64,000 nt of DNA from contig NZ_CP015405.2 in the NCBI RefSeq assembly GCF_001689125.2, positions 711,001-775,000 on the forward strand. The letters run 5' to 3'. Every line of letters begins with the position of its first letter. The first letter of the stretch is position 1. The notes beneath the pieces were generated by a model. That model had not been told where the DNA came from and did not search any database. It saw only the letters and a list, made by a program, of their open reading frames with translations. Shown here in pieces: positions 34,217 through 59,591 of the stretch. Made by a program: the position numbers and the translations under genes. The stretch is from Blautia pseudococcoides. GTDB taxonomy: Bacteria; Bacillota; Clostridia; Lachnospirales; Lachnospiraceae.

Positions 34217-34726
34217 TTAATCTTCCAGATTGCTTTTTATTTCCCCACACGCGATTTTGCTGCCGGAATCCCCTGATGGCTGTGTTTTAAAGTCATCAGG
34301 TTTTTCATGGATGATTACCGTCCGGCCTATGATTTCTTCCGGAACGAACCGGTTTGTATAGAACATAGAAAGCGCATACCCGTCATTTTCAAAGAGCGGA
34401 GGTAAATCCCCGGCATGTTCCGGGTGCGGACAATCTTTGGGATTTAAATGGCTGCCGGTAAGAGGATAATCCCCCTCTGCGTTTTCTTCGCAGGAAGAGC
34501 CTTCATGAATGTGAAAGGCAAAGACTTTTTCCTGACAGGCAGCTTCCGAAGTGGGAAGTCCGGCAATGTCGGCAAGGACAACCGTACCGCCCCACAGCGG
34601 GAAAAAGTATACGAAACCTTTGATATTGGGGTATCTCTTTCCTCCGTATACAAAGGAATAGGCTTCCGGTGCAGTGGTGACTACCTTTTGCATGGCTTCT
34701 AATAATTCCCGGCGCATATATGTCAT
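34217..34726 (-). CDS. sodC: Cu/Zn superoxide dismutase family protein
   Basis: 169 residues. Metal ligands are in FAFHIHEG (two His), GSHLNP (His), HPEHAGDLP (His, Asp) and VIIHEKPDDF (His); Cys in GSSCEE and KIACGEI can make the conserved disulfide; PSGDSGSKIACG is the family end motif. Disproportionates superoxide. No signal peptide, so the protein is likely made inside the mother cell or spore. Its ATG overlaps the cotJC stop (ATGA), so it is the last gene of the cotJ operon. With the element inserted, it is cut off from the cotJ promoter, which lies 24 kb away. Confidence 0.9.
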   Translation of the reverse strand: MTYMRRELLEAMQKVVTTAPEAYSFVYGGKRYPNIKGFVYFFPLWGGTVVLADIAGLPTSEAACQEKVFAFHIHEGSSCEENAEGDYPLTGSHLNPKDCPHPEHAGDLPPLFENDGYALSMFYTNRFVPEEIIGRTVIIHEKPDDFKTQPSGDSGSKIACGEIKSNLED

Positions 34727-35169
34727 TTGCTGCATCCCGGATCGCAGCTGCATTTGGCGGGCATGTCAAAGCTGGGGTTAAAGGCATAGAAGTTCTTAAA
34801 GTCCAGTTCTTCCTGTACGGAACGTAGGGTTTCACCGAAACGCTGGAAATGCACAACTTCTCTTTCACGCAGGAATCGGATGGGGTCTATAACATCCGGG
34901 TCTTTGATGACACGGAGTATGTTGTCGTAAGTGGAGCGTGCTTTCTGTTCAGCAGCCATATCTTCAAATAAATCTGTGATGGGATCTCCTTTTGACTGGA
35001 ACTCACAGGCATTAAAGGGGATACCTCCGGCAGCCTGCGGCCAGATGCCTACGGTATGGTCGATATAATAGGGGCCAAGACCGGACTTTTCTATTTCTTC
35101 CATGGAAAGGTTGCGGGTGAGCTGGTGTACAATGGTGGATACCATTTCCATGTGAGCCAGTTCCTCTGT
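34723..35169 (-). CDS. cotJC: cotJC, 3' part (manganese catalase / spore coat protein), separated by a 23.7-kb insertion
   Basis: Encodes the last 148 residues of a manganese-catalase-type CotJC. It begins abruptly at TEELAHMEMVSTIVHQL, which holds the Glu/His pair matching Glu66 and His69 of Lactobacillus plantarum Mn-catalase; later AAEQKARSTYDNI and REREVVHFQRFGETL supply the other Glu and His. The N-terminal ~62 residues with the first Glu ligand are missing here and lie at 58843-59028. A frame continues upstream to a GTG at 35196 inside the inserted DNA but has no ribosome site. As it stands the fragment should be silent and inactive; excision of the insertion would rebuild a 210-residue protein. 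Confidence 0.9.
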   Translation of the reverse strand, partial: TEELAHMEMVSTIVHQLTRNLSMEEIEKSGLGPYYIDHTVGIWPQAAGGIPFNACEFQSKGDPITDLFEDMAAEQKARSTYDNILRVIKDPDVIDPIRFLREREVVHFQRFGETLRSVQEELDFKNFYAFNPSFDMPAKCSCDPGCSK

Positions 35170-35182
35170 ACCTGTATCGTTA
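35164..35182. repeat. left attachment site of the cotJC element
   Basis: TACCT (35169-35173) is shared with the right end, within a longer match TACCTrTATCrTT (12 of 14 identical). The inner side carries the arm TATCGTTA (35175-35182), the exact reverse complement of TAACGATA at 58834-58841 at the other end. Confidence 0.8.
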
Positions 35183-35267
35183 TCGGTATTGTACACGTGA
35201 AGTAATGATTAACGTGGTGCTGCCTGTACGGAAGTGTTATACTATAAGAAAAAAGGAGGAGTATGAT

Positions 35268-35819
35268 ATGTACAAAACAGAAACTTACACAGCAGTGGTA
35301 CCGGTGGAAGACTACATAGAAGGTTATGTGGATGTGGTCACGTTTCTAGAGTGCTGCAGAGCATGTCCGAATTACGATACGGTATGGTCCTGCCCGTCTT
35401 ACGATTTTGATGTTTTGTCATACTGGAGAAAATACAAGAATCTGGAACTGACCGCCGTTAAAATAATATTTGACGAGGATTTTGCAGGAAAGGCATTTAC
35501 AAAGGAGGAGCAGGACGAGATCCTTGGGCAGTCCCTCCGTGTGGAGAAGGGAAAGTTATCGGAAATACTCTGGGAAAAAGAAAAGGAATATCCGGGAAGT
35601 ATCAGCCTGTCAGCAGGTTCCTGCGATTTGTGTCAAGGAAACTGTACCAGACCGGATAAAAAAGCATGTCGTTTTCCGGAAAAGATGCGTTATTCCATAG
35701 AATCCATGGGAGGCAATGTGGGGCTCACACTCAGTAAGCTCATGGGAATCGAGCTGGAATGGATGGAAGAGGGGAAGCTGCCCCATTATTTTGTGCTGGT
35801 GTGCGGGCTTTTAAAGTAA
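35268..35819 (+). CDS. DUF2284 predicted metal-binding protein
   Basis: 183 residues, Cys-rich: FLECCRACPNYDTVWSCPSY near the N-terminus and AGSCDLCQGNCTRPDKKAC later, the pattern of the DUF2284 family, presumed to bind a metal or iron-sulfur cluster. The biochemical role is unknown. AAAGGAGG stands before ATG 35268, with a TATACT box about 25 bp further up (near 35239). It is the first gene inside the left end of the cotJC element, starting under 100 bp from the junction. Confidence 0.85.
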   Translation: MYKTETYTAVVPVEDYIEGYVDVVTFLECCRACPNYDTVWSCPSYDFDVLSYWRKYKNLELTAVKIIFDEDFAGKAFTKEEQDEILGQSLRVEKGKLSEILWEKEKEYPGSISLSAGSCDLCQGNCTRPDKKACRFPEKMRYSIESMGGNVGLTLSKLMGIELEWMEEGKLPHYFVLVCGLLK

Positions 35820-35917
35820 ACTGCAAATGGGTAAAAAGGGAACTTGACAAAGAATGTCGTTTGTTATACGCTTCTATCATAAACTTATAAAAGTATCTGA
35901 TAAGAGTGTAAAGTAGA

Positions 35918-36976
35918 ATGCATATGGACACTCTGACTGCCAGACCAAAAGTATTAAAACAGGCAAATCTTTCCCTCATACGGAAAGTTCTGAAAGCAAA
36001 AGGAACTGCCACCAGGGCAGAGATTGCCTATGAGACAAAGATCAGTTCCACCACAGTCCGCTCCCTGTTGTCTGAAATGATGCAGAACGGAGAAATTGAG
36101 AGTATTGGATACGATGAGTCCAGCGGAGGAAGAAAAGCGGAGCGCTATGGATTCAGGCCCCATCGGTATTACGGTGCAGCTTTCTGTATCACAGGAGACC
36201 AGATCTACGGTTTGTTGATCAATGTCTGCGGCGAGATCGTGGAAAAAACAAGGCTGGAGGCGGCCAACGGTGATTTTGAGAGCGCCGTCACCGCCTGGCT
36301 GGATGAGCAGGTCAAAAAAAGAGAACTCAAGTCCATAGGCATTGGCGTGCCCGGTGCAGTGGAAGGGGGAGGGTACTGGAGAACCAATGAGACTGACGGG
36401 AAATTATATAAAATAAATATAGGTGACAACCTTGAAAAACGGTACAAAATACCGGTAGTGCTGGAAAATGACTTAAATGCCACTGCCTTCGGATTCGGGC
36501 GGTGTTACGCAAAAGAGTTTCTATGTGAGAATCCGAATAACGTGAATATGGCATTTCTCTATTTTGAAAAGGGCTGTGTAAGCGCGGGCTTTATCTCAGG
36601 GGGCAGGGTTGTCCGCGGAAATAATAATTTTGCCGGGGAGCTGGGACTGCTGCCCATGGAACACGGAAAGACGCTGGATGCGTGTATGGCAGAACCTATG
36701 GAGGCTGTCAGATATGTCAATCTGGTGGTCCAAGTCATCAGTTTTATCTGCGGAATTCTGAATCCGCAGTATGTGGTCCTTGGCGGTCCCAGTCTGCGGA
36801 AGAACTGTATCGGGCCTGTTGGTGATGGGCTTTCCGCCTTTCTGCCGAAGCATCTTCTGCCTGAGATCCTCTATTCTCCGGATGTGTGGCAGGATTATTT
36901 TGACGGTATGGCAAGTCTTACCGCCGGGAAAATGTTCGACGAGGTACAGTTTATAAAAGAGCAGCCATGTTTATGA
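35918..36976 (+). CDS. ROK-family transcriptional regulator
   Basis: 352 residues. N-terminal winged helix (LIRKVLKAKGTATRAEIAYE, ISSTTVRSLLSEM) and a ROK sugar-kinase-like domain (GIGVPGAVEGG, ENDLNATAFGFG, GELGLLPMEHG). The CxCGxxGC zinc motif usual for NagC/XylR-type ROK regulators is missing after GELGLLPMEHG, as in some divergent repressors. It likely senses a sugar and controls neighbouring carbohydrate genes. A TTGACA box lies at 35844-35849; the ribosome site is weak. Its stop overlaps the start of a small membrane protein gene. Confidence 0.87.
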   Translation: MHMDTLTARPKVLKQANLSLIRKVLKAKGTATRAEIAYETKISSTTVRSLLSEMMQNGEIESIGYDESSGGRKAERYGFRPHRYYGAAFCITGDQIYGLLINVCGEIVEKTRLEAANGDFESAVTAWLDEQVKKRELKSIGIGVPGAVEGGGYWRTNETDGKLYKINIGDNLEKRYKIPVVLENDLNATAFGFGRCYAKEFLCENPNNVNMAFLYFEKGCVSAGFISGGRVVRGNNNFAGELGLLPMEHGKTLDACMAEPMEAVRYVNLVVQVISFICGILNPQYVVLGGPSLRKNCIGPVGDGLSAFLPKHLLPEILYSPDVWQDYFDGMASLTAGKMFDEVQFIKEQPCL

Positions 36977-37197
36977 GTAAGAGAAAGAAAATCCTCCATA
37001 CCAGGCCGATTTTGGGGCCAATGATCGGTGGGGCCGTAAAAGGCATTCAGGAGTCAGGTGATGCCGTGAGATCTGCTGCCGCTATGAACGGGATACGTGG
37101 TCTGTATCTGATATCCACAGCGGGTATTTTGCTTCTGCAGGTGATTTATCATCACCTGCAGGGAAAAAGGGAGGTGTGTGTCCATGTCAAAGGTTGA
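36973..37197 (+). CDS. small membrane protein of unknown function
   Basis: 74 residues. Starts by an ATGA overlap with the ROK gene and ends 14 bases inside the PHP gene, so it is translationally linked to both. The N-terminus is basic (MSKRKKILHTRP) and there is one probable membrane helix (GLYLISTAGILLLQVIYHH). I recognise no family. The tight packing is the main argument that it is real. Confidence 0.5.
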   Translation: MSKRKKILHTRPILGPMIGGAVKGIQESGDAVRSAAAMNGIRGLYLISTAGILLLQVIYHHLQGKREVCVHVKG

Positions 37198-38083
37198 TTT
37201 CCATATCCATACCAAGTTCAGTGATGACGGAGAATTTTCTCCAGGAGAGATTGTCAGACAGTGTGAGGCCGAAGGGATGGAGTGGATTGCCGTTACAGAC
37301 CATAATTCTGTCCGCGGCGTGCCAAAAGCTATGGAGGAGGCTGTTTCTGTCCGTGTCATATCCGGTGTGGAGCTGGACTGTGTGTACAGGGGGCATAATT
37401 TTCACCTTTTGGGATATGGCATTAATGCGTCCCGGGAGGAATTTTGGGAGATAGAACAGGATATCCTCAGCCAGGAGAGAAGGGCAGCAGAGGAAAAAAT
37501 CAGGCTGTTTTCAAAGGCGTCCGGCATTTATGTTGATGCAGATAAAATTCTTGCAGAATCAGAGAGTGGTGTTGTGACAGGAGAGCAGATCGCTGCTTAT
37601 GTCCTGGGCCGGGAGGACGCAGAGAGAGATGAGAGACTGGTGCCTTATCTTCCCGGCGGACAGAAAAGTGATATGCCCAATGTGCGGTTCTACTGGGATT
37701 TTTTCTCCAAAGGAAAGCCTGCCTATGTGGAAATCTCTTATCTTTCCCTTCCAGATGCTGCATCTCTGATACACAGCGCCGGCGGCATGGCGGTTCTTGC
37801 ACATCCGGGCCAGAATCTGAAAGGGGATGATGAACTGTTGGATAGAATAATAGAGGAGAAGATTGACGGGATTGAGGCATTTTCTTCTTATCACAGCAGG
37901 GCAGAAGCGGCGCATTATCTGGAAGCTGCCATACAGGGTGGTCTTCTTGCTACCTGCGGCAGTGATTTTCATGGCAGACATAAGCCAAATATCAGGCTGG
38001 GAGGTCACAACGCCCTGTGGAGTGACGAAAAACTCCTGTCAGAAATGAAAAAAAGCCCCTTACTGAGGCAGCCTGTTCTATAA
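37184..38083 (+). CDS. PHP-domain metal-dependent phosphoesterase
   Basis: 299 residues. PHP motifs in order: VDFHIHTKFSDDG, WIAVTDHNSV, ISGVELDC, AVLAHPG, and CGSDFHG. The histidines and aspartates bind two or three metal ions. Relatives hydrolyse phosphoesters such as 3',5'-nucleoside bisphosphates (YciV/TrpH group); the exact substrate is open. AAGGGAGGTG lies eight bases before ATG 37184. The operon with a ROK regulator gives little hint of its role. Confidence 0.88.
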   Translation: MSKVDFHIHTKFSDDGEFSPGEIVRQCEAEGMEWIAVTDHNSVRGVPKAMEEAVSVRVISGVELDCVYRGHNFHLLGYGINASREEFWEIEQDILSQERRAAEEKIRLFSKASGIYVDADKILAESESGVVTGEQIAAYVLGREDAERDERLVPYLPGGQKSDMPNVRFYWDFFSKGKPAYVEISYLSLPDAASLIHSAGGMAVLAHPGQNLKGDDELLDRIIEEKIDGIEAFSSYHSRAEAAHYLEAAIQGGLLATCGSDFHGRHKPNIRLGGHNALWSDEKLLSEMKKSPLLRQPVL

Positions 38084-38097
38084 AAGAACAGGCTGCC
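38067..38097. terminator. long hairpin between convergent PHP and GH120 genes
   Basis: GGCAGCCTGTTCT and AGAACAGGCTGCC form a perfect 13-bp stem with a TAAAA-type loop, spanning the PHP stop codon. There is no T run on either side, so termination is likely but not certain. Confidence 0.5.
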
Positions 38098-42935: not shown

Positions 42936-45900
42936 ATGGAACAGACAAAGGCGAAGAGAAAGCGGCACTCAAAATTCCTGAGTGCCCTGCTGGCGGTCTG
43001 TGTAGTATTCTCAGGCGGCGGAATGACAGTTCCGGTGCAGGCGGATGCAGAACAGACGGAGCAGAACACCATTGTGAACGGGGCATTGTGGTATGATGAC
43101 CGTGGAGAGAACATTCAGGGGCACGGCGGCAATATCCTGGAGTATGAGGGCAGATATTACTGGGTAGGGGAGTACAAGGAGAACGCCAATTTCAGCGGCA
43201 TTGCCCTTTATTCATCCTCAGACCTGGCAGACTGGAAATTTGAGAACATGATTCTGACACCGGATACGCCGGATGATGACGGTACCATAGGCTTCTGTAC
43301 CATAGAGCGTCCGAAACTGATTTTTAATGGCTCGGAATTTGTACTGTGGGCACATTGGGAAAACGGCAAAGATTATGGCGAATCAAAATTGATCGTAGCC
43401 AAATGTGATACGGTCAACGGTGATTACGAATTTGTAAACCGCTTCAATCCCAAGTCCAAAACGTATAATGCGGAGACCGGTGAATATGAGATAACTACCA
43501 ACCGTTCCCTGGATATGACTATTTACAATGATACGGAAACCGATGCGGATGGAACGGTACATAACCAGGCGTATCTGATTTCCGCCAATGGTCATAATAT
43601 GGCACTCTATAAGCTGACCCAGGATTGTATGGATGTAATTCCTGAGGAGAGTTACCAGTTCTGGATCGGAGCAGGAAGGGAGGCCCCTGCCCTTGTAAAA
43701 TCCGCCGATTATTACGTGCTGGTGACTTCAGGCCAGTCCGGCTGGTATCCCAATCAGTCCATGTACGGGTATACAAAAGATATCACAGATCCCAACGGAT
43801 GGACACCGGCAGATGAACTGAAAACCATTGGAAACAATTCAACCTTTTACAGTCAGCCAACCAATATCGCCTCGATTGGAGATGGACAGTACATTTATAT
43901 GGGTGACCGCTGGAATCCCGGTGCGTTGGGAAAATCCACATTCGTATGGCTTCCGCTCAATATAGAAGCCGGGGAGGAGGGGGTTACCGCATCCATGGAT
44001 TATGTGGATGCGTGGTCATTCAATGCAGGAAGCGGCAAAGTTGAGCTTCCGGACAGCGAACTGGTATCACAGGGAAAAACCGTGGAGGCCAGCGTGGCAG
44101 GTAGTGATGCTCATCCGGTAGAACAGGCTGTGGACGGCATTCGTGACACTACCTCAGAATGGGGGAACAGCAACTATTTTGCGCCTGCATCCGTGCCCTT
44201 TTCCTACACTATTGATCTGGAAGAGGTATATGATCTAAATAGATTTGACCTTTCCACACGTCTGTGCAACGGCTCTGAGACTTATTACCAGTACCGTGTG
44301 GAGGGAAGCAATGACAAAGTAAACTGGGAACAGATCTTGGATGAGTCATCCAATACAACTGCCGCCTTTAGAAGCAATCCTGTAAGCGGGTCCTACCGTT
44401 ATGTGAGGCTGGTCGTCGACAATGTGGTCAATGCCCATAATGGCAATGGCGCGGCCTGGGCAGCGGGACTGGTAGAGGTGGAAGTCTATGCCTCTCAAAA
44501 AACGGCTTCCCATAAAGTCCTGGATATTTTATATGAACAGTACAAATCTGTTGAGCAGGGCTATTACACCAGAGCCTCCTATAAAGAATTTCAAAAAGCA
44601 CTGAAGAAAGCAAAAGAAATCCTGGAAAAAGGGGAAGCGGCAGAGTCGGAATACGAAGATGCTGTAAAAGCGTTAAAGACTGCATACGAGGGGTTGAAAA
44701 GGGGTGCCGGGACTCCGGTGAAAGTGACAGGAGCGGTCAGTGACACGGCAACCGCAGCGGGCACACTTCCGGCATTGGCACCTGTAGTGATGGTGGAGAC
44801 ACAGGAAGGTCTGTCTGCAGAGGCAGAGATTGACTGGAATATTTCAAAAGAACAGTTCACCTCCCCTTACAGCACAGTTTCTGTTGAGGGAGTGGTGAGA
44901 AATACGGGTTTGAAAGTAAGCTGCAGTGTGGAAGTGATTCCGGATAACCTGATCTATTTTATTGACTGCGGTACACAGGAAACAGGCTCCGGGGCATTCA
45001 ATGCAGTAGCTGCGTCAGGAACCGTGATGAAGAATCAGGTGTCTGACCAGACCTATTCTGAGGAGAGCGGCTGGGGTATTTTAAGTGGATATGATGGCGC
45101 AAAGACAGGGGAACATGCTGATAAATACACTACCGGATACTATGGAGTCAATGCAGCAGGAAAAGAGAAAGGCTATGCCTACAAATTTACATTAGATGCA
45201 GGGGAATATGATATTACAGTGCAGTCTCATGAGTGGTGGTCAGGCCCGCGTACCAGTAATTTTGAAGCTGTTTATACAACAGCAGCCGGTGAGCCACAGT
45301 CCGTTATGATCGCGGAAGGACTGTCAGTGGGAAATGGCTACAGCCCCAATGCAATAGGCAGCGGCAGGCTCACCCTTGAGGAAAAGACAGAGGTACAGCT
45401 TAATGTCTACGCTTCCACCGATCAAGGGGCAGTCATTACATTTTTGGGTATTGCAAAGTCAGGTGAAAAACCCGACAAGGGAGAACTTATCCGTCTGTAT
45501 GAAGCAAACAAGGACAAAGAATCCGAGAAATATACAGAGGAGAGCTGGCGGGCTTTTCAGGAAGCCCTTGACCAGGCAGACGCAGTCATCAGAAATGAGG
45601 AAGCAGATGCGGAAATGGTGAAGAATGCGAAAAATTCATTGGTAGAGGCTGTACTGAACTTAAGAGCTGATAAATCCGTACACACAGATGTTTTGGAAAC
45701 CTTGATCGGTCTGAATAAGAACAAGAATCCGGAAGATTATACTGCAGAAAGCTGGGCTGCCTTTGCGCAGACACTTTCAGCAGCCGTAAATCTTCTGGAA
45801 CAGGGAGAATACACACAGGTATCTGTGGATGAAGCCGCCAATGCAATTTTGGAGGCAGCAGGAAAGCTGACTGCTTCCACAAAGGCGGATAAAACCGATC

Positions 45901-47225
45901 TGCAGGCTCTCGCTTCCATATTTGAGGAAAAGGATTTAAGCATTTATACAAGAGAAACCAGGGATATCTGTCAGGCAGCTTTTGACAATATGCAGAAAGT
46001 CCTGGAAAATGACTCGGCTGTTCAGGCAGATGTGGATAGGGCAGCAGAGGCAGTGACAGATGCAGTGGCTGGGCTGGAACTTCAGGAAATAGCTGAAGGA
46101 CAAACAACTATAGGGCTCTCCAACCTTCTGGAGCTTTGTATACAGTACAGAAAGGAAAATTATACACAGGACAACTGGAGTATTTATTCTGAGAAAAAGC
46201 AGACAGCAGAGGCACTTCTTCAGAAGCTTTCAGTTACAGAAACTGTAGCAGCAAAGGAGGAATCCGGGGATACGGCAGCGGATATAAGCCAGGCAGAGAT
46301 AGATGCTGCTGCCGCGGAACTTTACAGCGCCATGAAAGGCCTGGTGAAGATCCAGAAGGAAAATCTGGCGGACAAGACAGGGCTGCAGAATCTCTATGAG
46401 ATGACAGGCATTCTGTCAGAAAATGATTATACAGCAGAAAGCTGGGAAAATCTTGTAAAGGCGCAGGAAGCAGCCAAAATGGTCCTGGATTCTGAGCTGG
46501 CTGACCAGCAGAAGGCAGATGAAGCAGCAAACGCACTTCTTCAGGCGGCAAAAGAACTGGTAAGGGAAGAGGAGGATGCAAAACAGGCAGATAAGACCCC
46601 CCTTCAGAATGTGTACGATGTGTGTGCAGGATATCTGGAGGAGAATTACACAAAAGAGAGCTGGGAAGCATTTAAGACGGCAAAAGAGCAGGCCGGTGTG
46701 GTGCTTCAGAAAGAAGATGCCAGTCAGGCGGAAATCGACCGTGCAAAAGACGCACTTTTCACAGCGATCAAAGGCCTTGTAAAAGCAGAGCAGCTTCAGA
46801 TTGTGGATAAGAGCAGTCTGCAGCAATTGTTCAATGCAGCGTCTAAGCTTAATAAGGAAGACTTTACAGAAGAATCCTGGAAGGCACTGCAGGCAGCAAT
46901 GGAATCGGCAAAAAGTCTGCTGGCCTCCGAAGAGGCATCCCAGGAAGAAGTCAATACCGCCGCGGATGCTCTTGATAAAGCAGTGAAAGGTTTGAAGACG
47001 GCAGACAAGAAAGAGTCATCTGATAAGGAAAAAAATACGAATAACGGCACAGACACAGGGAATAAGAAGAGTCCAAAGGCTAAAGTGGGAAATGCAGCTA
47101 AGACAAAAACAGGCAGTGTTAAAACAGGAGATTCCACCCCCGTTGTTCTGTTTATAGGAACTGGAGGGATTGCTCTTGCCGGGATCACCTATCTTTTGGC
47201 ATCCAGAAGAAAAAGAAACAAGTAG
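42936..47225 (+). CDS. wall-anchored GH43 (subfamily 24-like) surface protein with CBM32 and FIVAR stalk
   Basis: 1429 residues, secreted. Signal peptide (FLSALLAVCVVFSGGG, cleavage near VQA), GH43 propeller ~45-365 (NIQGHGGNI, IERPKLI, AGREAPALV, YMGDRWNPG), F5/8C-CBM32 ~369-519, one FIVAR, Ig-like ~590-668, malectin-like ~670-843 (LIYFIDCG...), seven more FIVAR repeats ~847-1355, Lys-rich linker, anchor VKTGD (Lys1396), membrane helix and RRKRNK tail. The GH43 features match exo-beta-1,3-galactanases, which cut the backbone of type II arabinogalactan. The architecture mirrors the giant protein at 6890, but this one lies inside the cotJC element. AAGGAGGAAGTT precedes the ATG. Confidence 0.9.
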   Translation: MEQTKAKRKRHSKFLSALLAVCVVFSGGGMTVPVQADAEQTEQNTIVNGALWYDDRGENIQGHGGNILEYEGRYYWVGEYKENANFSGIALYSSSDLADWKFENMILTPDTPDDDGTIGFCTIERPKLIFNGSEFVLWAHWENGKDYGESKLIVAKCDTVNGDYEFVNRFNPKSKTYNAETGEYEITTNRSLDMTIYNDTETDADGTVHNQAYLISANGHNMALYKLTQDCMDVIPEESYQFWIGAGREAPALVKSADYYVLVTSGQSGWYPNQSMYGYTKDITDPNGWTPADELKTIGNNSTFYSQPTNIASIGDGQYIYMGDRWNPGALGKSTFVWLPLNIEAGEEGVTASMDYVDAWSFNAGSGKVELPDSELVSQGKTVEASVAGSDAHPVEQAVDGIRDTTSEWGNSNYFAPASVPFSYTIDLEEVYDLNRFDLSTRLCNGSETYYQYRVEGSNDKVNWEQILDESSNTTAAFRSNPVSGSYRYVRLVVDNVVNAHNGNGAAWAAGLVEVEVYASQKTASHKVLDILYEQYKSVEQGYYTRASYKEFQKALKKAKEILEKGEAAESEYEDAVKALKTAYEGLKRGAGTPVKVTGAVSDTATAAGTLPALAPVVMVETQEGLSAEAEIDWNISKEQFTSPYSTVSVEGVVRNTGLKVSCSVEVIPDNLIYFIDCGTQETGSGAFNAVAASGTVMKNQVSDQTYSEESGWGILSGYDGAKTGEHADKYTTGYYGVNAAGKEKGYAYKFTLDAGEYDITVQSHEWWSGPRTSNFEAVYTTAAGEPQSVMIAEGLSVGNGYSPNAIGSGRLTLEEKTEVQLNVYASTDQGAVITFLGIAKSGEKPDKGELIRLYEANKDKESEKYTEESWRAFQEALDQADAVIRNEEADAEMVKNAKNSLVEAVLNLRADKSVHTDVLETLIGLNKNKNPEDYTAESWAAFAQTLSAAVNLLEQGEYTQVSVDEAANAILEAAGKLTASTKADKTDLQALASIFEEKDLSIYTRETRDICQAAFDNMQKVLENDSAVQADVDRAAEAVTDAVAGLELQEIAEGQTTIGLSNLLELCIQYRKENYTQDNWSIYSEKKQTAEALLQKLSVTETVAAKEESGDTAADISQAEIDAAAAELYSAMKGLVKIQKENLADKTGLQNLYEMTGILSENDYTAESWENLVKAQEAAKMVLDSELADQQKADEAANALLQAAKELVREEEDAKQADKTPLQNVYDVCAGYLEENYTKESWEAFKTAKEQAGVVLQKEDASQAEIDRAKDALFTAIKGLVKAEQLQIVDKSSLQQLFNAASKLNKEDFTEESWKALQAAMESAKSLLASEEASQEEVNTAADALDKAVKGLKTADKKESSDKEKNTNNGTDTGNKKSPKAKVGNAAKTKTGSVKTGDSTPVVLFIGTGGIALAGITYLLASRRKRNK

Positions 47226-47429: not shown

Positions 47430-47651
47430 ATGAAAAAAACATTTAAGTTGTTAGATTTAGACTGTGCACACTGTGCTGCAAAAATTGAGGACTCCGTGAG
47501 AAAGATAGAGGGGGTAGCCAGTGCTGAAGTTAATTTTTTGAATCAGAAAATGGTATTAGAGGCAGATCAGGAGCATTTTCAGGAGATTGCAGAGAAAGTG
47601 GTTACATTGATCCGGAAAATCGAACCGGATGTCACGGTAAAGAAAATCTAA
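47430..47651 (+). CDS. stand-alone heavy-metal-associated (HMA) domain protein
   Basis: 73 residues, a single HMA fold with the metal motif DLDCAHCAAKIE. It binds a soft or borderline metal through two Cys and could pass it to the ATPase encoded 57 bp downstream, which lacks its own HMA domain. The Asp before the first Cys (LDCAHC) is typical of zinc/cadmium/lead rather than copper domains. GGGAGAATATAG precedes the ATG. Confidence 0.88.
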   Translation: MKKTFKLLDLDCAHCAAKIEDSVRKIEGVASAEVNFLNQKMVLEADQEHFQEIAEKVVTLIRKIEPDVTVKKI

Positions 47652-47708
47652 GTCAGTAGCGGCAGGTCTGCGGGACCGCCGCTGTCATTCAAAGAAAGGA
47701 TGAAAAAA

Positions 47709-49604
47709 ATGACCAAAAAACAGAAAAAACAATTATACAGGATTCTAACGGCTGTTCTTATTTTCCTTCCGGTTTTATGGCTTCCCATGAATGAAACAGG
47801 GAAATTTATAGGATTTCTGGTCTGTTATGCAGTGATCGGGTGGGATATTATCTGGAAAGCTATTTCCAATATTCTCCACGGTCAGGTGTTTGATGAAAAT
47901 TTCCTGATGACAGTAGCCACTGTGGGTGCTATGTACTTGGGAGAATATAAAGAGGGCGTTGCAGTCATGTTGTTTTATCAGGTGGGAGAGTTATTTCAGT
48001 CTTATGCTGTCAGCAAATCACGCCGTTCTATTGCAGGGCTGATGGATATACGGCCTGACTATGCCAATGTGGTGCGGGAAGGAAAAGAAACCAGAGTTGA
48101 CCCGGACGAAGTTCTTGTAGGAGATGTGATACTGGTGAAGCCGGGAGAAAGGGTACCTCTTGACGGAACGGTTCTGGAGGGAAATTCCACTTTAGATACC
48201 TCCGCGCTCACCGGGGAATCCATGCCCAGGGAAATCGGAGCCGGCGCAGAAGTCATCAGCGGATGTATTAACCAGACAGGAACGCTGAGAATCCGTGTGG
48301 GCAGGCTCTACGGAGAATCAACGGTATCTAAAATACTGGACTTGGTAGAGAATGCCAGCAGTAAAAAGTCAAAATCCGAGGCTTTTATCACACGATTTGC
48401 AAAATATTATACACCTTCTGTTGTAGCCGCGGCCGCGCTGCTGGCTGTTTTACCTCCTTTACTTATGGGGCAGGCATTTGCACCCTGGATACACAGAGCG
48501 CTCACATTCCTTGTGATTTCCTGCCCGTGTGCCCTTGTGATCTCTGTCCCCCTGAGTTTCTTCGGAGGAATCGGCGGTGCTTCAAAATGTGGTGTGCTGA
48601 TTAAAGGAAGTAATTATCTGGAAGCTCTTGCAAAAGCGGAGACAGTGGTGTTTGATAAAACAGGAACACTTACAAAAGGGTCCTTTGCTGTGACTAGATG
48701 TTATCCCCAGGGGATTTCCGGTGAAAGACTGCTGGAACTGGCCGCCCGTGCGGAAAAAGACTCCAGCCATCCCATTTCCAGGTCTATTGTGAAAGCATAC
48801 GGAAAAGACACAGAGCGGTTTGGGGTAACAGATGTGCAGGAGATCGCGGGCCACGGTATCTCTGTCTCTCTGGATGGGAAAAAGGTACTGGCTGGAAACG
48901 CAAAGCTGATGAGATCAAAAAACATACCATTTCAGCCTGTTACCGAAGCCGGTACAGTTGTGTATGTTGCCGAAGATGGGAAATACCGGGGAGCTGTCCT
49001 GATTGAGGATGAGATCAAGGATGATGCAGCGTTTGCAGTCAGGGAACTGAAAAAAGCCGGTGTCCGGAAAACCGTTATGCTCACCGGAGATGCGAAGGCT
49101 GTGGGAGAAAAAGTGGCAGAAAAACTGGGGCTGGATTTGGCTTATACAGAACTGCTTCCTGCGGATAAAGTGGAGCATATGGAGAGACTGCTGGAAGAGA
49201 CAAGCGAAAAGGGCAGGCTGGCCTTTGTTGGGGATGGAATCAACGATGCCCCTGTACTTGCCAGGGCTGACATCGGAATTGCCATGGGAGGTCTGGGGTC
49301 TGATGCGGCCATCGAAGCGGCGGACATTGTCATTATGACAGATGAGCCGTCAAAAATCGCGGCAGCCATAGGCATTTCAAGAAAAACACTGCGGATTGTC
49401 CGCCAGAATATAATATTTGCCCTGGGAGTCAAAGGCATTGTGCTGCTTCTCGGAGCTCTTGGAATTGCATCCATGTGGGCAGCCGTATTTGCGGATGTAG
49501 GCGTATCTGTCATTGCCATCTTAAACGCGGTACGTGCACTGAGGGTGCCGAAGGAAGACAGAGTGCTGAAGAAGGAGAGCATCCGGGAGACTGCGGCTGC
49601 ATAA
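47709..49604 (+). CDS. P1B-type ATPase, zinc/cadmium/lead exporter
   Basis: 631 residues. Eight membrane helices; ion-path motif SCPCALVISVP (CPC), phosphorylation site DKTGTLTKG, the SSHPIS nucleotide-binding histidine, and GDGINDAPVLARADIGIAMG. The CPCALVISVP form and the DKVEHM segment place it with ZntA/CadA. No N-terminal HMA domain: it starts straight before the first helix, and the HMA protein upstream supplies it in trans. ATG 47709 is preferred over 47700 because AAAGGA would touch the latter. Under an ArsR-type operator, so induced by zinc or cadmium, by inference. Confidence 0.93.
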   Translation: MTKKQKKQLYRILTAVLIFLPVLWLPMNETGKFIGFLVCYAVIGWDIIWKAISNILHGQVFDENFLMTVATVGAMYLGEYKEGVAVMLFYQVGELFQSYAVSKSRRSIAGLMDIRPDYANVVREGKETRVDPDEVLVGDVILVKPGERVPLDGTVLEGNSTLDTSALTGESMPREIGAGAEVISGCINQTGTLRIRVGRLYGESTVSKILDLVENASSKKSKSEAFITRFAKYYTPSVVAAAALLAVLPPLLMGQAFAPWIHRALTFLVISCPCALVISVPLSFFGGIGGASKCGVLIKGSNYLEALAKAETVVFDKTGTLTKGSFAVTRCYPQGISGERLLELAARAEKDSSHPISRSIVKAYGKDTERFGVTDVQEIAGHGISVSLDGKKVLAGNAKLMRSKNIPFQPVTEAGTVVYVAEDGKYRGAVLIEDEIKDDAAFAVRELKKAGVRKTVMLTGDAKAVGEKVAEKLGLDLAYTELLPADKVEHMERLLEETSEKGRLAFVGDGINDAPVLARADIGIAMGGLGSDAAIEAADIVIMTDEPSKIAAAIGISRKTLRIVRQNIIFALGVKGIVLLLGALGIASMWAAVFADVGVSVIAILNAVRALRVPKEDRVLKKESIRETAAA

Positions 49605-54804: not shown

Positions 54805-55839
54805 ATGAAGAATACCATGAAGGAAGTAGTTGTAGTAAAGCCTCATCAGGTGGAAGTGCGTGAAGTCCCTATTCCCGTTCCCGGTGATGATGAAGTCCTG
54901 ATCCAGATGAAAGCTGCAGGTGTATGCGGAAGTGACCACCATATTTATCACGGTGCGAATCCCTGCTCCACATATCCCCGTATTCCGGGTCATGAAAATG
55001 CAGGAATTGTGGTGAAAACAGGAAAAAATGTGGCAGATATAAAAGAGGGAGACCATGTGATCGTGGACCTGATCCATACCTGCCAAGAGTGCTATCAGTG
55101 CAGGATTGGAAGAAAGAATGTATGTGAGAAGGTAATGGTCAGGGGCTCCGGTATGGACGGCGGCTGGAGGGAATATTTTACAGCGCCTGCAAAGGAGGTC
55201 TACAGGATCGCTGACAGCGTGACATGGGAGGATGCTGCGCTTGTGGAGCCTTACGCAATCGGTGCACATTGTACGGCAAGAGGCCGGGTGGTGCCTGAGG
55301 ATACAGTCCTGATACTTGGGACGGGTACGATCGGAGCTATTATACTGCAGACCTGCAAGGCAAAAGGATGTAAAACCGTCATCTGCTGTGATATCAGCGA
55401 CAGTTCCCTGGAACGGGCCAGGGGATACGGTGCAGACCATGTGATCAATACAGAGAAGGAAAACCTGGCAGAAGCGGTACAGAGGATCACAGAGGGCCAT
55501 GGAGTTACCATCGCATTTGATTCAGCCTGTTTTCCGGGATCTCTCACTATGGTCATGCAGCCGGGGATCATCTGTAATGCAGGGCGTGTGGTTCCCCTGG
55601 GATTCTGTACAAAACCGGAAGAAATCACACAGGCCATGATCAACCAGAGAGAGCTGGATATTATTGGAACCAGAATGTCATGTTATAAATTTGAGCCGAC
55701 TATTTCTGGTATGGAAAATAAGAAGTTTGATACAAAGGGAATTGCCACTACATTTATAAACTTCAGTGAAATAGATAAAGTATTTTATTATATGGACCAT
55801 CCGGAACCTGCAGTGAAGAAAATGGTCATCCTGTTTTAA
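54805..55839 (+). CDS. zinc-dependent sugar-acid/polyol dehydrogenase (RspB-like MDR)
   Basis: 344 residues. Catalytic zinc site: AGVCGSDHHIYHG and PGHENAG; structural zinc: four Cys in CQECYQCRIGRKNVCEK; NAD site LILGTGTIGA. The pairing with a ManD/RspA-type dehydratase matches the rspAB arrangement, in which the dehydrogenase oxidises L-gulonate or L-galactonate to a keto-acid. The substrate is inferred. An upstream in-frame ATG at 54742 gives an unlikely N-terminus; 54805 follows AAAGGAAAG and yields the normal MDR start. Confidence 0.9.
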   Translation: MKNTMKEVVVVKPHQVEVREVPIPVPGDDEVLIQMKAAGVCGSDHHIYHGANPCSTYPRIPGHENAGIVVKTGKNVADIKEGDHVIVDLIHTCQECYQCRIGRKNVCEKVMVRGSGMDGGWREYFTAPAKEVYRIADSVTWEDAALVEPYAIGAHCTARGRVVPEDTVLILGTGTIGAIILQTCKAKGCKTVICCDISDSSLERARGYGADHVINTEKENLAEAVQRITEGHGVTIAFDSACFPGSLTMVMQPGIICNAGRVVPLGFCTKPEEITQAMINQRELDIIGTRMSCYKFEPTISGMENKKFDTKGIATTFINFSEIDKVFYYMDHPEPAVKKMVILF

Positions 55840-55912
55840 GTATGGTATGTAAACAGGGCGACATGATGCTGCTCGGTGATGAGCGATTACAATAGGGATT
55901 TTAGAAAGGAGG

Positions 55913-55930
55913 GCAGGATATAAATCCTGC
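55913..55930 (+). promoter_or_regulatory. hairpin between the ribosome-binding site and start of the SDR gene
   Basis: GCAGGAT-ATAA-ATCCTGC is a perfect 7-bp stem with a 4-nt loop. It begins directly at the end of AAAGGAGG (55905-55912), and the start codon is at 55940. Unfolded, the spacing is 27 nt, too long; folded, 9 nt remain, which is ideal. Confidence 0.6.
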
Positions 55931-55939
55931 AGTATATGT

Positions 55940-56710
55940 ATGAAGGGAAATGAATTATTTAATATTGAAGGGAAAAAGGCGATCGTGACAGGCGGGACAA
56001 GAGGCCTGGGATATGGGATGGCAGAGGGTCTTATGGAAGCCGGCTGTGAAGTGGCCATTGTAGGAACATCTGCGAAGGTACACGAGGCGGCAGCACATTT
56101 TCGCGGGAAAGGTTTTAAATGCCATGGCGTAAAAGCGAATCTTGCCGTCCGTGAGGAAGTGTATCTCTGCTTCCGGGAGTGTGTGGAGAAGCTTGGAAAA
56201 GATTTGGATATCCTTGTGACTGCTCATGGGATTCAGAGACGCCACAGTGCAGAGGTTTTTCCGATTGAGGAATGGGATGAGGTTTTGAATGTCAATCTGA
56301 ATTCGGTATTTATCCTGTGTCAGGAAGCGGCAAAAGTCATGCTGGAAAAGGGCTATGGTAAGATCATCAATATTGCCTCCATGGTATCCTGGTTTGGCGG
56401 ACAGACAGTTCCAGCCTATACTGCGGCAAAGGGTGGAGTGACACAGCTTACAAAAGAGCTGAGCAATGATTGGATCGCAAGAGGCATCAATGTAAATGCT
56501 ATTGCGCCCGGATATATGGCTACAGAGATGAATGCGGCTCTTTTGGACCAGGAAAATCCAAGATATCAGCAGATCACAGACAGGATTCCAGCCAACCGGT
56601 GGGGGACCGGAGAGGATATGAAAGGTGCCTGTATTTTCCTGGCATCACATGCCAGTGATTATTTGGGCGGAGCCATAATTCCTGTGGATGGAGGATATCT
56701 TGTAAAGTAA
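55940..56710 (+). CDS. short-chain dehydrogenase, KduD-like (2-dehydro-3-deoxygluconate 5-dehydrogenase)
   Basis: 256 residues. Rossmann start AIVTGGTRGLGYG, TAHGIQRRHSAEVFPIEEWD, catalytic Ser in INIASMVSW, YTAAKGG (Tyr, Lys), NAIAPGYMATEMNAAL and RIPANRWGTGEDMKG; the last two are close to KduD. KduD interconverts 5-keto- and 2-keto-3-deoxygluconates in uronate breakdown, which fits the dehydratase upstream. The ribosome site AAAGGAGG is 27 bases from the ATG with a hairpin between. Confidence 0.9.
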   Translation: MKGNELFNIEGKKAIVTGGTRGLGYGMAEGLMEAGCEVAIVGTSAKVHEAAAHFRGKGFKCHGVKANLAVREEVYLCFRECVEKLGKDLDILVTAHGIQRRHSAEVFPIEEWDEVLNVNLNSVFILCQEAAKVMLEKGYGKIINIASMVSWFGGQTVPAYTAAKGGVTQLTKELSNDWIARGINVNAIAPGYMATEMNAALLDQENPRYQQITDRIPANRWGTGEDMKGACIFLASHASDYLGGAIIPVDGGYLVK

Positions 56711-56733
56711 TAAAATTAAGAAAAGTATGACAG

Positions 56734-56785
56734 TAAGTGCCTAAAAGCGGCAGAGACCAGCAGCCGCTTTCAGGTGCTTTTTTGT
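56734..56785 (+). terminator. terminator of the sugar-acid operon
   Basis: AAGTGCCTAAAAGCGGC pairs with GCCGCTTTCAGGTGCTT, then TTTT. It separates the operon from the recombinase unit. Confidence 0.8.
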
Positions 56786-56911
56786 CTGTCATCCTGCCCG
56801 TATATCTGTACATTGTCCAGGATGTTAGTTTTAAGGTAAGTGTTCAGCAGGTCTGCGCATTTGCTGCGCTGACCGTAAAAACATAACAGTATGGCAAAAG
56901 TTTTGTTTCTG

Positions 56912-56927
56912 CATATTCTATTATAAT
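56912..56927 (+). promoter_or_regulatory. candidate promoter of the recombinase unit
   Basis: CATATTCTA (56912-56920) matches the -10 form CATANNNTA of mother-cell sigma-E/K promoters; TATAAT (56922-56927) right after it matches sigma-A. Neither has a good -35 box, so both readings stay open. Confidence 0.35.
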
Positions 56928-56977
56928 GACAAAGCAGGGGATGCCATGTGGGAAATTGTAATGAGAAGGATATCTGG

Positions 56978-57133
56978 ATGCAGCAGGAAGGTATGGAAAA
57001 TATTGTGCTGACGCCAAAACAACAGATGCATTTTTGCAGGCAGTTAAAACGGGGAATCTGTAAAGAGCTTCATGGAAGCGGCCTGCTGACAGATGAGCAG
57101 CTCAGTCAGCTGCTGAATGAACTGGAACCATGA
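56978..57133 (+). CDS. small protein upstream of the serine recombinase
   Basis: 51 residues, helical, with the segment KELHGSGLLTDEQLSQLLNE that resembles a SHOCT motif. Short proteins of this kind are often encoded directly before serine recombinases in Firmicutes elements; their role is unproven. ATG 56978 follows GAGAAGGA. Its stop overlaps an ATG (57130) in the recombinase frame. It is a candidate accessory or directionality factor, by position only. Confidence 0.6.
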   Translation: MQQEGMENIVLTPKQQMHFCRQLKRGICKELHGSGLLTDEQLSQLLNELEP

Positions 57134-57201
57134 AATCATGTGGCTGCCGGAATCATTTTCCGGGTCATATATTTGATATGATAAGTTTGGAGGCTTTCCA
57201 G

Positions 57202-58836
57202 ATGAAAAAGAAAGTAAGGGCAGCTGCGTACGGAAGAGTATCCACAGAGAAGGATGATCAGGTGAATTCCCTCATAAGCCAGCGGGAGTATTTTTCTGAT
57301 TACATTCGTCAGCACGAAGATTGGGAATTGACCGGTATTTATTATGATGAAGGTATCAGCGGAACCCAGACTGCAAACCGAAGAGGGTTTAACCAGATGA
57401 TTCAGGATGCCATGGCTGGTAAAATAGATTTAATCCTTACAAAAGAAGTATCAAGATTTGCCAGGAACACGGTGGATACTCTTTCTTATATAAGAAAACT
57501 GAAGGAAAAGGGAGTCCGCGTTATTTTTACCATTGATAATATTGATACCATGGACGGAGATGGAGAACTTCGTCTGTCTATCATGGCAACCCTTGCCCAG
57601 GATGAAAGCAGAAAGACATCTGAACGTGTGAAATGGGGACAGAAACGCAGGATGGAACAGGGAGTGGTATTTGGCAGGGACCTGCTTGGGTATACGGTGA
57701 AGGCAGGCAATTTATTTGTCAATGAGGAGGAGGCAGGGATCGTCAAAGCCATATTCCACAAATATACAAATGAACAAAAAGGCACGCATGTTATTGCCAG
57801 AGAGCTTACGGAGGAGGGGATACCGCCTAAACAGGGAGAGAGATGGTCTAATACTATGATTTTAAAAGTTCTGAAAAACGAGAAGTACGCAGGGGATCTG
57901 TGCCAGAAAAAAACAATCACCCCGGATTTCTTGTCCCACAGAAAAAAAAGAAATGAGGGGGAGGAGGAAATGGTATATTTGAAAAACCATCACACACCGG
58001 TCATTGACAGGGAACTGTGGGACAGAACACAGAGAGAGCTGAAAGTAAGATCCTCATCGCAGCAAAGAGTGGCCGGGCAATGCAGTCATTATTGGTGCAG
58101 TGGAAAAGTAAAATGCGGGGAATGCGGAGGAAGTTTCGTGATCCGTACAAAAAAACGCAGCGATGGAAGTATCTACAAAAGCTGGAGATGTTATAATCAT
58201 GCAAATCATGGTAAATCCTGCTGCCAAAACACAGCAGTCAGTGACTTGGCGCTGCGTGCCTGTGTGTCTTTTGCGGTAAAGCAGGTAAGGATTGAAAAGG
58301 ATACTATAGCGGCAGAACTTCTACAGAGCATTAAAAGGCTGAAACGGACAGAGCTATACACGGACGATGACTCTTTTATTGAGAAAAGGATAGGAGAAAT
58401 TCAGTCCAAAAAGAAAAAATGTGTTGATTTGGCGTTGGAGGGAATCTTAAATGCCCAAGAATTGGCTGAACAGAAAGATTGGTACGACGGGCAGATCAAA
58501 AGACTGGAAAGAAGGCTGTTAAAAATAGAAAAGGAGAAGGAGATTGAGGAGAAAGAAAGTAATTGTCCGGAAAAATACATAAAAACGATCAAAGGTATCT
58601 TGCGTTTTCAGGAGGAGGAAGATGTCCTTTACCGAGAAATACTTGATAAGGCTGTCGTGTATCCTGGACAGATTGTTTGTATATGGCTGAAAGATTTGCC
58701 GTTTGGGATAAAAATGCGGATACAGACCAGCGGCAAACGTGAAAATTATACTACGGAAATCCTGGATGTGTGTCTTGTTAAGAAAAATATGAATAACGGC
58801 ATGGTGGGGAAAGGTAAATGGGGGGCAAAGCGGTAA
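57202..58836 (+). CDS. large serine recombinase of the cotJC element
   Basis: 544 residues. Catalytic domain with nucleophile Ser14 in AAYGRVSTEKDD, QREYFSDYIRQH, YYDEGISGT, VSRFARNTVDTL and MATLAQDESRKTSERVKWG; recombinase domain (LLGYTVKAGNL, GTHVIARELTEEGIPP); zinc ribbon CGECGGSF ... CYNH ... CC; and a coiled coil (~380-460). It integrates or excises DNA between short att sites without high homology. ATG 57202 follows GGAGG at eight bases; an upstream in-frame ATG (57130) overlaps the small gene and has a weak site. The stop lies inside the right att arm, six bases from TACCT, as for phage-type integrases. Confidence 0.95.
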   Translation: MKKKVRAAAYGRVSTEKDDQVNSLISQREYFSDYIRQHEDWELTGIYYDEGISGTQTANRRGFNQMIQDAMAGKIDLILTKEVSRFARNTVDTLSYIRKLKEKGVRVIFTIDNIDTMDGDGELRLSIMATLAQDESRKTSERVKWGQKRRMEQGVVFGRDLLGYTVKAGNLFVNEEEAGIVKAIFHKYTNEQKGTHVIARELTEEGIPPKQGERWSNTMILKVLKNEKYAGDLCQKKTITPDFLSHRKKRNEGEEEMVYLKNHHTPVIDRELWDRTQRELKVRSSSQQRVAGQCSHYWCSGKVKCGECGGSFVIRTKKRSDGSIYKSWRCYNHANHGKSCCQNTAVSDLALRACVSFAVKQVRIEKDTIAAELLQSIKRLKRTELYTDDDSFIEKRIGEIQSKKKKCVDLALEGILNAQELAEQKDWYDGQIKRLERRLLKIEKEKEIEEKESNCPEKYIKTIKGILRFQEEEDVLYREILDKAVVYPGQIVCIWLKDLPFGIKMRIQTSGKRENYTTEILDVCLVKKNMNNGMVGKGKWGAKR

Positions 58837-58851
58837 CGATATACCTATATC
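58834..58851. repeat. right attachment site of the cotJC element
   Basis: TACCT at 58842-58846, preceded by the arm TAACGATA (58834-58841) that includes the recombinase stop. Locally GATATA-CC-TATATC is symmetric around CC, the likely 2-bp crossover. Confidence 0.8.
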
Positions 58852-59028
58852 ATTCAGGGTACCCATGGCGATGCGGTTAGGCATTGCGAAACGCTGTGAC
58901 AGATAACGCATAGAAGCGGCGATTTCTCCATCAGGTCCACCATACTGACTCATAATATACAAAGCAGCCTTGGCATTCGGAGTCTTAATATTAATCGGAT
59001 ACTGTAATCTCTTCTCATAATTCCACAT
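58843..59028 (-). CDS. cotJC: cotJC, 5' part (first 62 codons), separated by the element
   Basis: Encodes M1-G62 of CotJC: MWNYEKRLQYPINIK, then QYGGPDGEIAASMRYLSQRF with Glu35, the first ligand of the dimanganese site (same number as in L. plantarum Mn-catalase), ending GTLNDIG. Beyond this the frame runs on antisense through the recombinase gene to a stop at 58519, adding ~107 unrelated residues. The ATG follows AAAGGAG and lies 18 bp after cotJB. The missing 148 residues are at 34723-35169. Neither part alone can form the metal site. Confidence 0.92.
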
Positions 59029-59046
59029 ATTCTAGCAAACTCCTTT

Positions 59047-59307
59047 CTATTCCCAAGGCCACGGCTGCATCACCCAATCCCATGAGTTGCTGCAGTCATC
59101 ATCAGCAGTTGCAATGGTAAGCGGGCCATAGTACATGGCATATTCTTTCAGTGCTTCTTCGCGGATGCGGATTTTATCGCACATAAATTCCATGGCGGAC
59201 TTGTCATCCGGATGGGTGTCAAGATAGAGGTTCATATCGTTGACAGCAAAGCTGACTTCATTGATCAGCTGCATTAACTGCGCTTTACTGCGTCTGCATT
59301 CTTTCAT
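59047..59307 (-). CDS. cotJB: spore coat protein CotJB
   Basis: 86 residues. CotJB pattern: LMQLINEVSFAVNDMNLYLD, THPDDKSAMEF and a C-terminal aromatic tail PWPWE. In Bacillus subtilis it is part of the CotJ inner-coat complex made in the mother cell. Start 59307 overlaps the cotJA stop (ATGA); a longer in-frame start at 59343 lies within cotJA and is rejected. AGAGGTGG serves as ribosome site. Confidence 0.93.
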   Translation of the reverse strand: MKECRRSKAQLMQLINEVSFAVNDMNLYLDTHPDDKSAMEFMCDKIRIREEALKEYAMYYGPLTIATADDDCSNSWDWVMQPWPWE

Positions 59308-59591
59308 CGACAGCCACCTCTCTTTCCGCAGAATGGCTTGCACAGTTCAGGGAAGATGGTTCCCATCTGCAGGCCTTTGCAGAGTTCAAATGTTTTTTTG
59401 TATTTCTGCATGGGTACATATGCCATGGTAAGCGGCAGCTTATCGGCATGTTCATAGATTGAGGTGTTGTCTACCATATCGCAGTTACAGCCGCAGGGTG
59501 TACGGCGGCCGCAGTTTTCCCGGGCCGGCATTTCTCTGTTCGGCGGATAATGCGGACGGACGCCCTGATAATTCATTCGACATTTTTCCAT
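59304..59591 (-). CDS. cotJA: spore coat protein CotJA
   Basis: 95 residues. N-terminal Pro/Cys-rich part (RRTPCGCNCD) and the CotJA core LPLTMAYVPMQKYKKTFEL, then GTIFPELCKPFCG. First gene of the cotJ operon, with AAAGGAT before the ATG and a sporulation-type promoter upstream. Confidence 0.93.
   Translation of the reverse strand: MEKCRMNYQGVRPHYPPNREMPARENCGRRTPCGCNCDMVDNTSIYEHADKLPLTMAYVPMQKYKKTFELCKGLQMGTIFPELCKPFCGKRGGCR

Follow-up and report, generated by a model that had tools for sequence, protein, structure and literature searches.

How can a spore coat gene be maintained when its two parts lie more than 23 kb apart? The question is raised by a 64,000-nucleotide stretch of the Blautia pseudococcoides genome (contig NZ_CP015405.2, positions 711,001 to 775,000; G000:C1:711001-775000, here called the window), in which the minus-strand operon cotJA-cotJB-cotJC-sodC is interrupted within cotJC, which the literature describes as the gene for a spore coat protein, by an element carrying a gene for a large serine recombinase (LSR). 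We consider it likely that cotJC is a standing target of LSR elements and that the island in the window is excised and cotJC thereby rebuilt, most probably in the sporulating mother cell. The source genome (G000) is a single contig of 5,128,746 bp (5.13 Mb). The locus is organized as follows.

59304 to 59591, minus strand: cotJA, from its open reading frame (ORF) and the gene order, which is kept in genomes G307, G301 and G305
59047 to 59343, minus strand: cotJB, from its ORF and the gene order, with homologues in relatives
58844 to 59028, minus strand: 5′ part of cotJC, through the GG core in codon 62 (Pfam Mn_catalase 1-62; joined translation)
34723 to 35170, minus strand: 3′ part of cotJC, beginning with the base that follows the core and running through the stop (Pfam Mn_catalase 64-198; joined translation)
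34217 to 34753, minus strand: sodC, Cu/Zn superoxide dismutase (PF00080), overlapping the end of cotJC
35173 to 58845: intervening element of 23,673 bp, from comparison of the cores, its ends being shiftable by the 2-bp core
58844 to 58845: attachment (att) core at the recombinase end, CC on the plus strand and GG on the coding strand, inside the shared AGGTA and at the centre of the attP palindrome
35171 to 35172: att core at the cargo end, in the shared AGGTA
57130 to 58836, plus strand: LSR of 568 amino acids (aa) with Resolvase, Recombinase and Zn ribbon domains (PF00239, PF07508, PF13408; phrog_95 integrase)

An earlier note on this DNA had claimed that cotJC is broken after codon 62 and resumes 23,673 bp away, and the ORFs, the Pfam halves and the joined 210-aa translation all agree with it. 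The cut falls at codon 62/63; the N-terminal side ends near 58843, and the remainder continues from 35169 on the same strand. The two pieces match complementary parts of the Mn_catalase profile (positions 1-62 with E = 1.9e-15, and 64-198 with E = 5.8e-24). The LSR gene does adjoin one end of the element, as the note had it, and we count 7 bases between its stop and the core.

In-frame rejoining in silico at the deduced cores

AGGTA is common to both junctions, and we placed the crossover at its GG. Joined there in silico, the cotJC of the window encodes a 210-aa CotJC with no internal stop. The attP deduced for the element is an imperfect palindrome centred on the GG (13 of 20 arm positions, with 10 at the next best centre), and for three other cotJC elements, called B, C and D and described below, the deduced palindrome covers 15, 16 and 18 of the 20 positions (9, 10 and 10 at the next best centres). 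A palindromic attP centred on the core is the expectation for an LSR site, and a short core, as opposed to long terminal repeats, is usual for these enzymes. Long direct repeats at the element ends were sought and rejected, the longest word shared nearby being only a 9-bp, A-rich one away from the cores. The GC fraction is 0.470 in the element and 0.468 and 0.462 in its flanks.

Joining at the deduced cores yields 210 uninterrupted codons in the window (one insert) and equally in G305 (three inserts) and in G301 (four inserts), a genome taken to be that of Blautia parvula, a close relative of the source. Short joins made by a script under an automatic longest-match rule were in frame in 7 of 10 further cases. 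The remaining three were G136, joined in the wrong register, and G122 and G138, for which the script found no open frame and inspection by eye gave in-frame joins at GG and at GA.

Empty sites and stacked elements in the genus

A cotJC match was present in all 20 genomes of the genus survey. Seven are interrupted (G000, G301, G305, G304, G300, G028 and G308, the last counted from one side only, near a contig end) and two are ambiguous (G314 and G315). The earlier note had considered the case in which relatives all carry the two-part arrangement and none an intact cotJC; this does not hold, as the gene is uninterrupted in 11 of the 20. The uninterrupted cotJC followed by sodC, for which it had proposed to look, is present in G307, whose empty site reads cotJA-cotJB-cotJC-sodC-paaK. 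The claim of one single insertion able to restore cotJC is thus strongly supported by the empty sites, the in-frame joins and the cores.

Some relatives carry several elements in the same gene copy. In G301, four elements divide cotJC into five pieces, and in each element an LSR gene adjoins one of these pieces. Read along the coding strand, the gene begins with its codons up to about 32; then come element D (6,844 bp), the codons up to 62, element A, which is the island of the window (20,414 bp), the 7-bp sequence TACTGAG, element B with 80,621 bp, the stretch from codon 65 to about 136, element C with 22,826 bp and the rest of the gene; the piece comprising codons 30-62 is 98 bp long. G305 carries A (22,303 bp), the 7-bp TACAGAG, B (50,321 bp) and C (24,934 bp). 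This 7-bp exon is kept between the two genomes with a synonymous difference, and it contributes Thr-Glu only once joined. Element B of G305 contains phage families (portal, small terminase, tape measure, DNA polymerase and endolysin; 33 of 44 picked ORFs scanned, families from the first 25 of 131), and C of G305 is a Tn916-like integrative and conjugative element (ICE) with TcpC, TcpE, AAA_10, Rep_trans and FtsK (19 of 20 picked ORFs). The single-contig genomes G000, G301 and G305 agree on both site and cargo.

The IMG/VR contig L138 encodes an A-type LSR 95% identical to that of the window. It carries cotJC codons 30-62 between this gene and that of a D-type LSR, and then early phage genes (DnaD-like, RusA-like and Sak-like; 11.9 of 36.8 kb examined). 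Another contig, L139 (IMGVR_UViG_2585427808_000005), resembles it, with an A-type LSR (75%), cotJC codons 30-79 and a second LSR-like match.

Pairing of recombinase groups with target sites

Five LSR groups correspond to five cores in cotJC: codons 30-33 for group D, 62-63 for A, 64-65 for B, 134-136 for C and 172-175 for E. The 210-aa reference has the motifs GGPDGE (30-35), TEELAH (63-68), AAEQKA (134-139) and REVVHFQ (165-171), and from alignment to solved Mn-catalase relatives, together with the ligand positions of the Lactobacillus plantarum enzyme, we take the metal ligands to be E35, E65/H68, E136 and H169. On this assignment, every core is on, or within about 3 codons of, a predicted metal-ligand codon.

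A cotJC-like piece was found in the fetched flanks of 14 of the best 16 LSR loci (at least 381 bits, window included), the piece at one of them, L018, being a 38%-identical homologue. None of the next 14 loci (274-295 bits) had such a piece; the two groups are divided by bit score, and some loci of the second reach 42-46% identity over part of their length.

Split cotJC genes in the family and beyond

We extended the survey to 120 genomes of the family with completeness of at least 90%. A cotJC match was found in 75, and 27 of these, by hand count, have separated complementary pieces. The splits lie near codons 33, 62-66, 137 and 178, with scatter in the BLAST ends. The pieces are on one contig in 13 genomes (G000, G028, G046, G033, G029, G014, G133, G136, G003, G122, G138, G047 and G098) and on different contigs in 14. 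Three pieces each, and hence two sites, were found in G136, G111 and G059. One-sided or ambiguous cases were left out of the 27 (G048, G040, G057, G132, G095, G037 and G123); G123 has an LSR at its cotJC break, and G037 was rejected as split because its two pieces abut.

The same break positions recur outside the family among the matches listed. Flanks were checked in 15 of these genomes: an LSR is present at the break in seven (G433, G459, G547, G570, G577, G504 and G492), and none was found within the fetched stretch in eight (G558, G532, G420, G427, G572, G533, G506 and G485), although G533 has a 204-aa LSR piece 2.8 kb from the break. Four of 14 other fetched genomes (G046, G033, G132 and G280) likewise showed no LSR near the break, nor did G308. 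An LSR lies within about 1.2 kb of a cotJC break in 40 genomes, a number that is not a rate, these genomes having been chosen by LSR similarity or a split-looking cotJC. The inserts comprise the metabolic island, prophages, a Tn916-like ICE and LSR-only-like elements of 2 to 3 kb, the near-empty examples measuring about 2.15 kb in G201, 2.55 kb in G029, 2.7 kb in G136, 2.9 kb in G149 and 3.1 kb in G547.

Three further observations concern these elements. G485, G560 (C70) and G060 (C68) contain repeated copies of the cotJC 3′ part, beginning at around codon 60 or 98 and spaced kilobases apart, as if elements brought a replacement 3′ gene end; in L195 (G485:C3:118000-136000), the copies lie at 1447-1713, 11056-11322 and 15636-16010, and G588:C1 has a separate 3′ piece. 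C-type LSRs of 519 aa each from two families, at 1720-3279 of L191 (G570:C58) and 547-2106 of G304:C302, match at 1181 bits, which suggests that the same element may recently have been transferred into the same cotJC site. The small E-type elements L163 (G029) and L173 (G201) have a Phd/YefM-like ORF upstream of the LSR, joined in G029 by a RelE-like partner, both being identified by eye from their translations; these ORFs may perhaps represent an addiction module that retains the element.

Purifying selection on the split gene

The split cotJC is under strong purifying selection, like intact copies. In three genomes of one clade, for which dS (synonymous divergence) is high in some genes and recombination is possible, the ratio of nonsynonymous to synonymous divergence (dN/dS; NG86 method, 198 codons away from the cores) was 0.031 for G000-G305 (dS 0.446), 0.029 for G000-G301 (dS 0.565) and 0.012 for G305-G301 (dS 0.526). 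Intact cotJC genes gave 0.020-0.064 (6 pairs) and intact paralogues 0.009-0.015 (3 pairs), these being the 9 usable pairs, with dS between 0 and 1.5, out of 65 (55 intact, 10 paralogue). The cotJC exons of G000, G301 and G305 contain no stop or frameshift.

Flanking genes had dS values of 0.27-0.65 and shared island genes of 0.42-1.26. As the island values are similar to those of the flanks or higher, they argue against recent exchange between these species. An island that has diverged for about as long as its flanks, or longer, implies that cotJC was split at codon 62/63 throughout. The recombinase itself is kept (dN/dS of about 0.11-0.13), though no transfer gene was found among 17 island proteins scanned with Pfam, which included the LSR and a 61-aa ORF upstream of it. 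Support for a regular rebuilding of the gene is indirect and comes mainly from this low dN/dS of cotJC in the split state, of which regular reconstitution by excision appears to be the best reading.

Control and timing of the proposed excision

Two features upstream of the LSR gene may bear on when the element would leave.

56948 to 57133, plus strand: small protein of 61 aa, its ORF sharing 4 bp with the start of the LSR gene, a candidate accessory or directionality factor from the clustering of upstream ORFs
56894 to 56920, plus strand: sigma-K-like promoter block GC-N16-CATATTCTA, kept in both G301 and G305, a weak indication

The source genome has spoIVA (600.9 bits) and an uninterrupted sigma-K-like gene whose 295 bits fall just below the cut-off of 298.65. 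The pattern [AG]C-N16-CATA[CT]TCTA upstream of the 61-aa ORF is kept in G000, G301 and G305 amid diverged DNA. The promoter-like block CATANNNTA is conserved upstream of the LSR in three related genomes, but most of the other cotJC LSRs lack it. Close behind the sigma-K-like block, inspection by eye shows a sigma-A-like -10 element. With what we take to be the sigma-K consensus, such blocks were found at 4 of 16 A-type LSRs (0.77 expected) and at 1 of 13 control LSRs. Among the loci examined, clustered small ORFs precede the LSR in 12 of 14 for type A, 6 of 6 for type E, 3 of 3 for type C, 2 of 5 for type B and 2 of 10 for type D; the A-type ORFs form one cluster at 8 loci, the 61-aa ORF of the window included, and a second at 4 more. 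For the skin element of Clostridioides difficile, PMC5025042 describes a constitutive LSR and a mother-cell-specific recombination directionality factor (RDF), so that the LSR promoter may be uninformative either way.

We propose that cotJC is a standing integration target in these bacteria, each LSR group recognizing a single conserved segment of the gene that adjoins or overlaps a metal-ligand codon. The LSR of the window, probably with a small directionality factor, would excise the island precisely at the GG core, which would rebuild the 210-codon cotJC and its link to sodC. We infer that excision occurs, as well as its factor, its timing in sporulation and its place in the mother cell, the most likely cell since its death means that loss of the island there costs nothing.

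Evidence against regulated excision and alternative explanations

Several observations weigh against this proposal. A second, uninterrupted cotJ operon is located at G000:C1:112499 (its CotJC is 64% identical), and G301 and G305 also have an intact cotJC paralogue, which may back up the function of the split gene. The earlier note would have counted such a second copy, combined with a lasting absence of any excision product, against its own reading; the copy exists. In other genomes, such as G028, cotJC is split and no further cotJC match was found. Sigma-K-like blocks were absent from all 19 LSRs of types B to E (B 0/3, C 0/3, D 0/10, E 0/3), and by these counts a general sigma-E/K promoter upstream of cotJC LSRs was rejected as a rule. 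Other small clustered ORFs precede 8 of 10 control LSRs too, and the 61-aa protein is a candidate RDF at most. Two A-type LSR frames are short (402 aa in G122 and 288 aa in G459), so that some copies may be dead. Finally, neither a circular excision product nor a rejoined gene was observed, and the attP pattern had 0 matches in the viral_contigs set, although this is not a set in which one would expect it.

The missing general sporulation promoter would suit active lysogeny, in which random or stress-induced excision in some cells, free of developmental control, restores cotJC often enough for selection. Such behavior would also be in keeping with the use of cotJC by prophages (B in G305, and D in L138 with its early phage genes) and by the Tn916-like ICE (C in G305). 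However, apart from the recombinase, the 17 scanned proteins of the window island include no phage or conjugation family, and the island would thus have no evident reason to excise except the host gene; moreover, the target is named for the spore coat, a pattern shared in the accessible literature with sigK, spsM, spoVFB, gerE and yabG. We regard active lysogeny as unlikely, though not negligible. It is very unlikely that cotJC is a dispensable safe harbour in which elements settle and leave the fragments as remnants. The intact paralogue and the short A-type LSR frames would fit such a dead end, as would the report, cited in PMC12122855, that Bacillus subtilis without CotJC has no apparent defect. 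A dead gene would not be expected to show the low dN/dS seen at a dS of about 0.5 while split, exons intact in all three genomes and the retention of a 7-bp exon that has changed synonymously.

Purifying selection would also be accounted for if the fragments were made separately and assembled as a split protein, with no rejoining of DNA, and a GTG-started frame of 157 aa is indeed present in the C part. We find this hardly credible, because pieces of 7 bp (TACTGAG and TACAGAG, giving Thr-Glu only after joining) and of 98 bp (codons 30-62 in G301) are hard to use as separate proteins. An assembly artefact or chance juxtaposition is scarcely conceivable: a contig break could mimic a split in the 14 genomes with pieces on different contigs, but 13 have them on one contig, the single-contig G000, G301 and G305 concur, and the selected sample of 40 genomes has an LSR at the break. 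Excision of the island with reconstitution of cotJC is thus the reading that we retain.

Comparison with known intervening elements

In its structure, the element of the window resembles skin and gin: it interrupts the coding region of a sporulation gene, it has its own recombinase and frame-restoring cores, and relatives have the uninterrupted gene. No report of cotJC as the site of an intervening element was found in the literature searched, the scope of which ended short of subscription papers and preprints.

The gin element of Bacillus cereus ATCC10987, 28.6 kb long with a 9-bp core, is likewise a large non-prophage island in a sporulation coding gene, with a serine recombinase and a short direct core (PMC5595907). 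It differs in having three recombinase genes and a demonstrated excision during sporulation that restores the gene, whereas the window island has one LSR and its excision is a prediction; the target of gin is gerE, and here it is cotJC, with metabolic cargo. The skin elements in sigK of B. subtilis and C. difficile share the LSR-bearing element inside a mother-cell gene, and sigK, too, is described as having been entered independently at more than one position (PMC5025042). In contrast, sigK encodes a regulator and cotJC a catalase-like coat protein, and cotJC has five sites and holds up to four elements in one gene copy. SP-beta in spsM (PMC4191935), and vfbin in spoVFB and yin in yabG (PMC10747680), are prophage-type elements interrupting sporulation genes, and phage genes are likewise present in the cotJC elements of type B in G305 and type D in L138; the target genes are different, however, and in cotJC several unrelated element classes share one gene. 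PMC10747680 names spsM, spoVFB, gerE and sigK beside yin in yabG. Prophage phi027 of C. difficile also lies beside a CotJC homologue, but there the gene lies downstream from attR and is reported as a complete, unsplit bacterial ORF (PMC11222575, PMC12122855).

Developmental rearrangements named in the accessible literature concern a handful of genes (sigK, spsM, spoVFB, gerE and yabG), whereas here a single coat gene of gut bacteria is split in roughly one third of those sampled family genomes in which it occurs. We lean, by a little, toward a broader proposal: that cotJC is developmentally spliced across much of the bacterial order, with up to four unrelated elements excised in one terminal mother cell, the 7-bp exon included, and each recombinase aimed at a catalytic-ligand motif, so that the coat catalase is rebuilt. 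Catalytic motifs would then be used for attachment, their DNA being the slowest to change. If this were true, truncated-looking cotJC fragments may be exons, gut spore formers would offer a rich natural set of recombinase-site pairs, and one could then test what draws intervening elements to spore genes and how many excisions a single mother cell can perform.

Content of the window element

The remainder of the element is one cargo region.

35205 to 56710: cargo, from Pfam matches, in an order shared with G301 and G305

It encodes DUF2284, ROK, PHP, GH120, AraC and MATE family proteins, a FIVAR surface protein, an HMA protein and a metal P-type ATPase, then a GntR/FCD regulator, an enolase-family dehydratase, a TRAP transporter (DctP, DctQ and DctM), an alcohol dehydrogenase (ADH) and a short-chain dehydrogenase/reductase (SDR), the last outside the Pfam scan and named from its translation. 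Among the 17 scanned proteins there were no phage structural or replication families, the recombinase apart, and no conjugation or mobilization families; the 61-aa ORF had no Pfam or PHROG match. By its gene content, the element is best described as a metabolic, non-phage island. Its LSR had 259 matches in phage records, all below 60% identity; among the 15 listed, the best two, from unannotated fecal records, reach about 50% and the other 13 reach 35-41%.

The cargo is 76-99% identical at the aa level to that of G301 and G305, in the same order with some genes missing. Divergence among the three genomes is greater for the recombinase (about 74% aa identity) and for the 61-aa ORF (56-62%) than for the cargo, the recombinase nonetheless being under selection. 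The FIVAR protein (42936-47225) has no match in the fetched regions of G301 and G305, nor the HMA/ATPase pair (47430-49604) in that of G305, which indicates that the cargo gains and loses genes.

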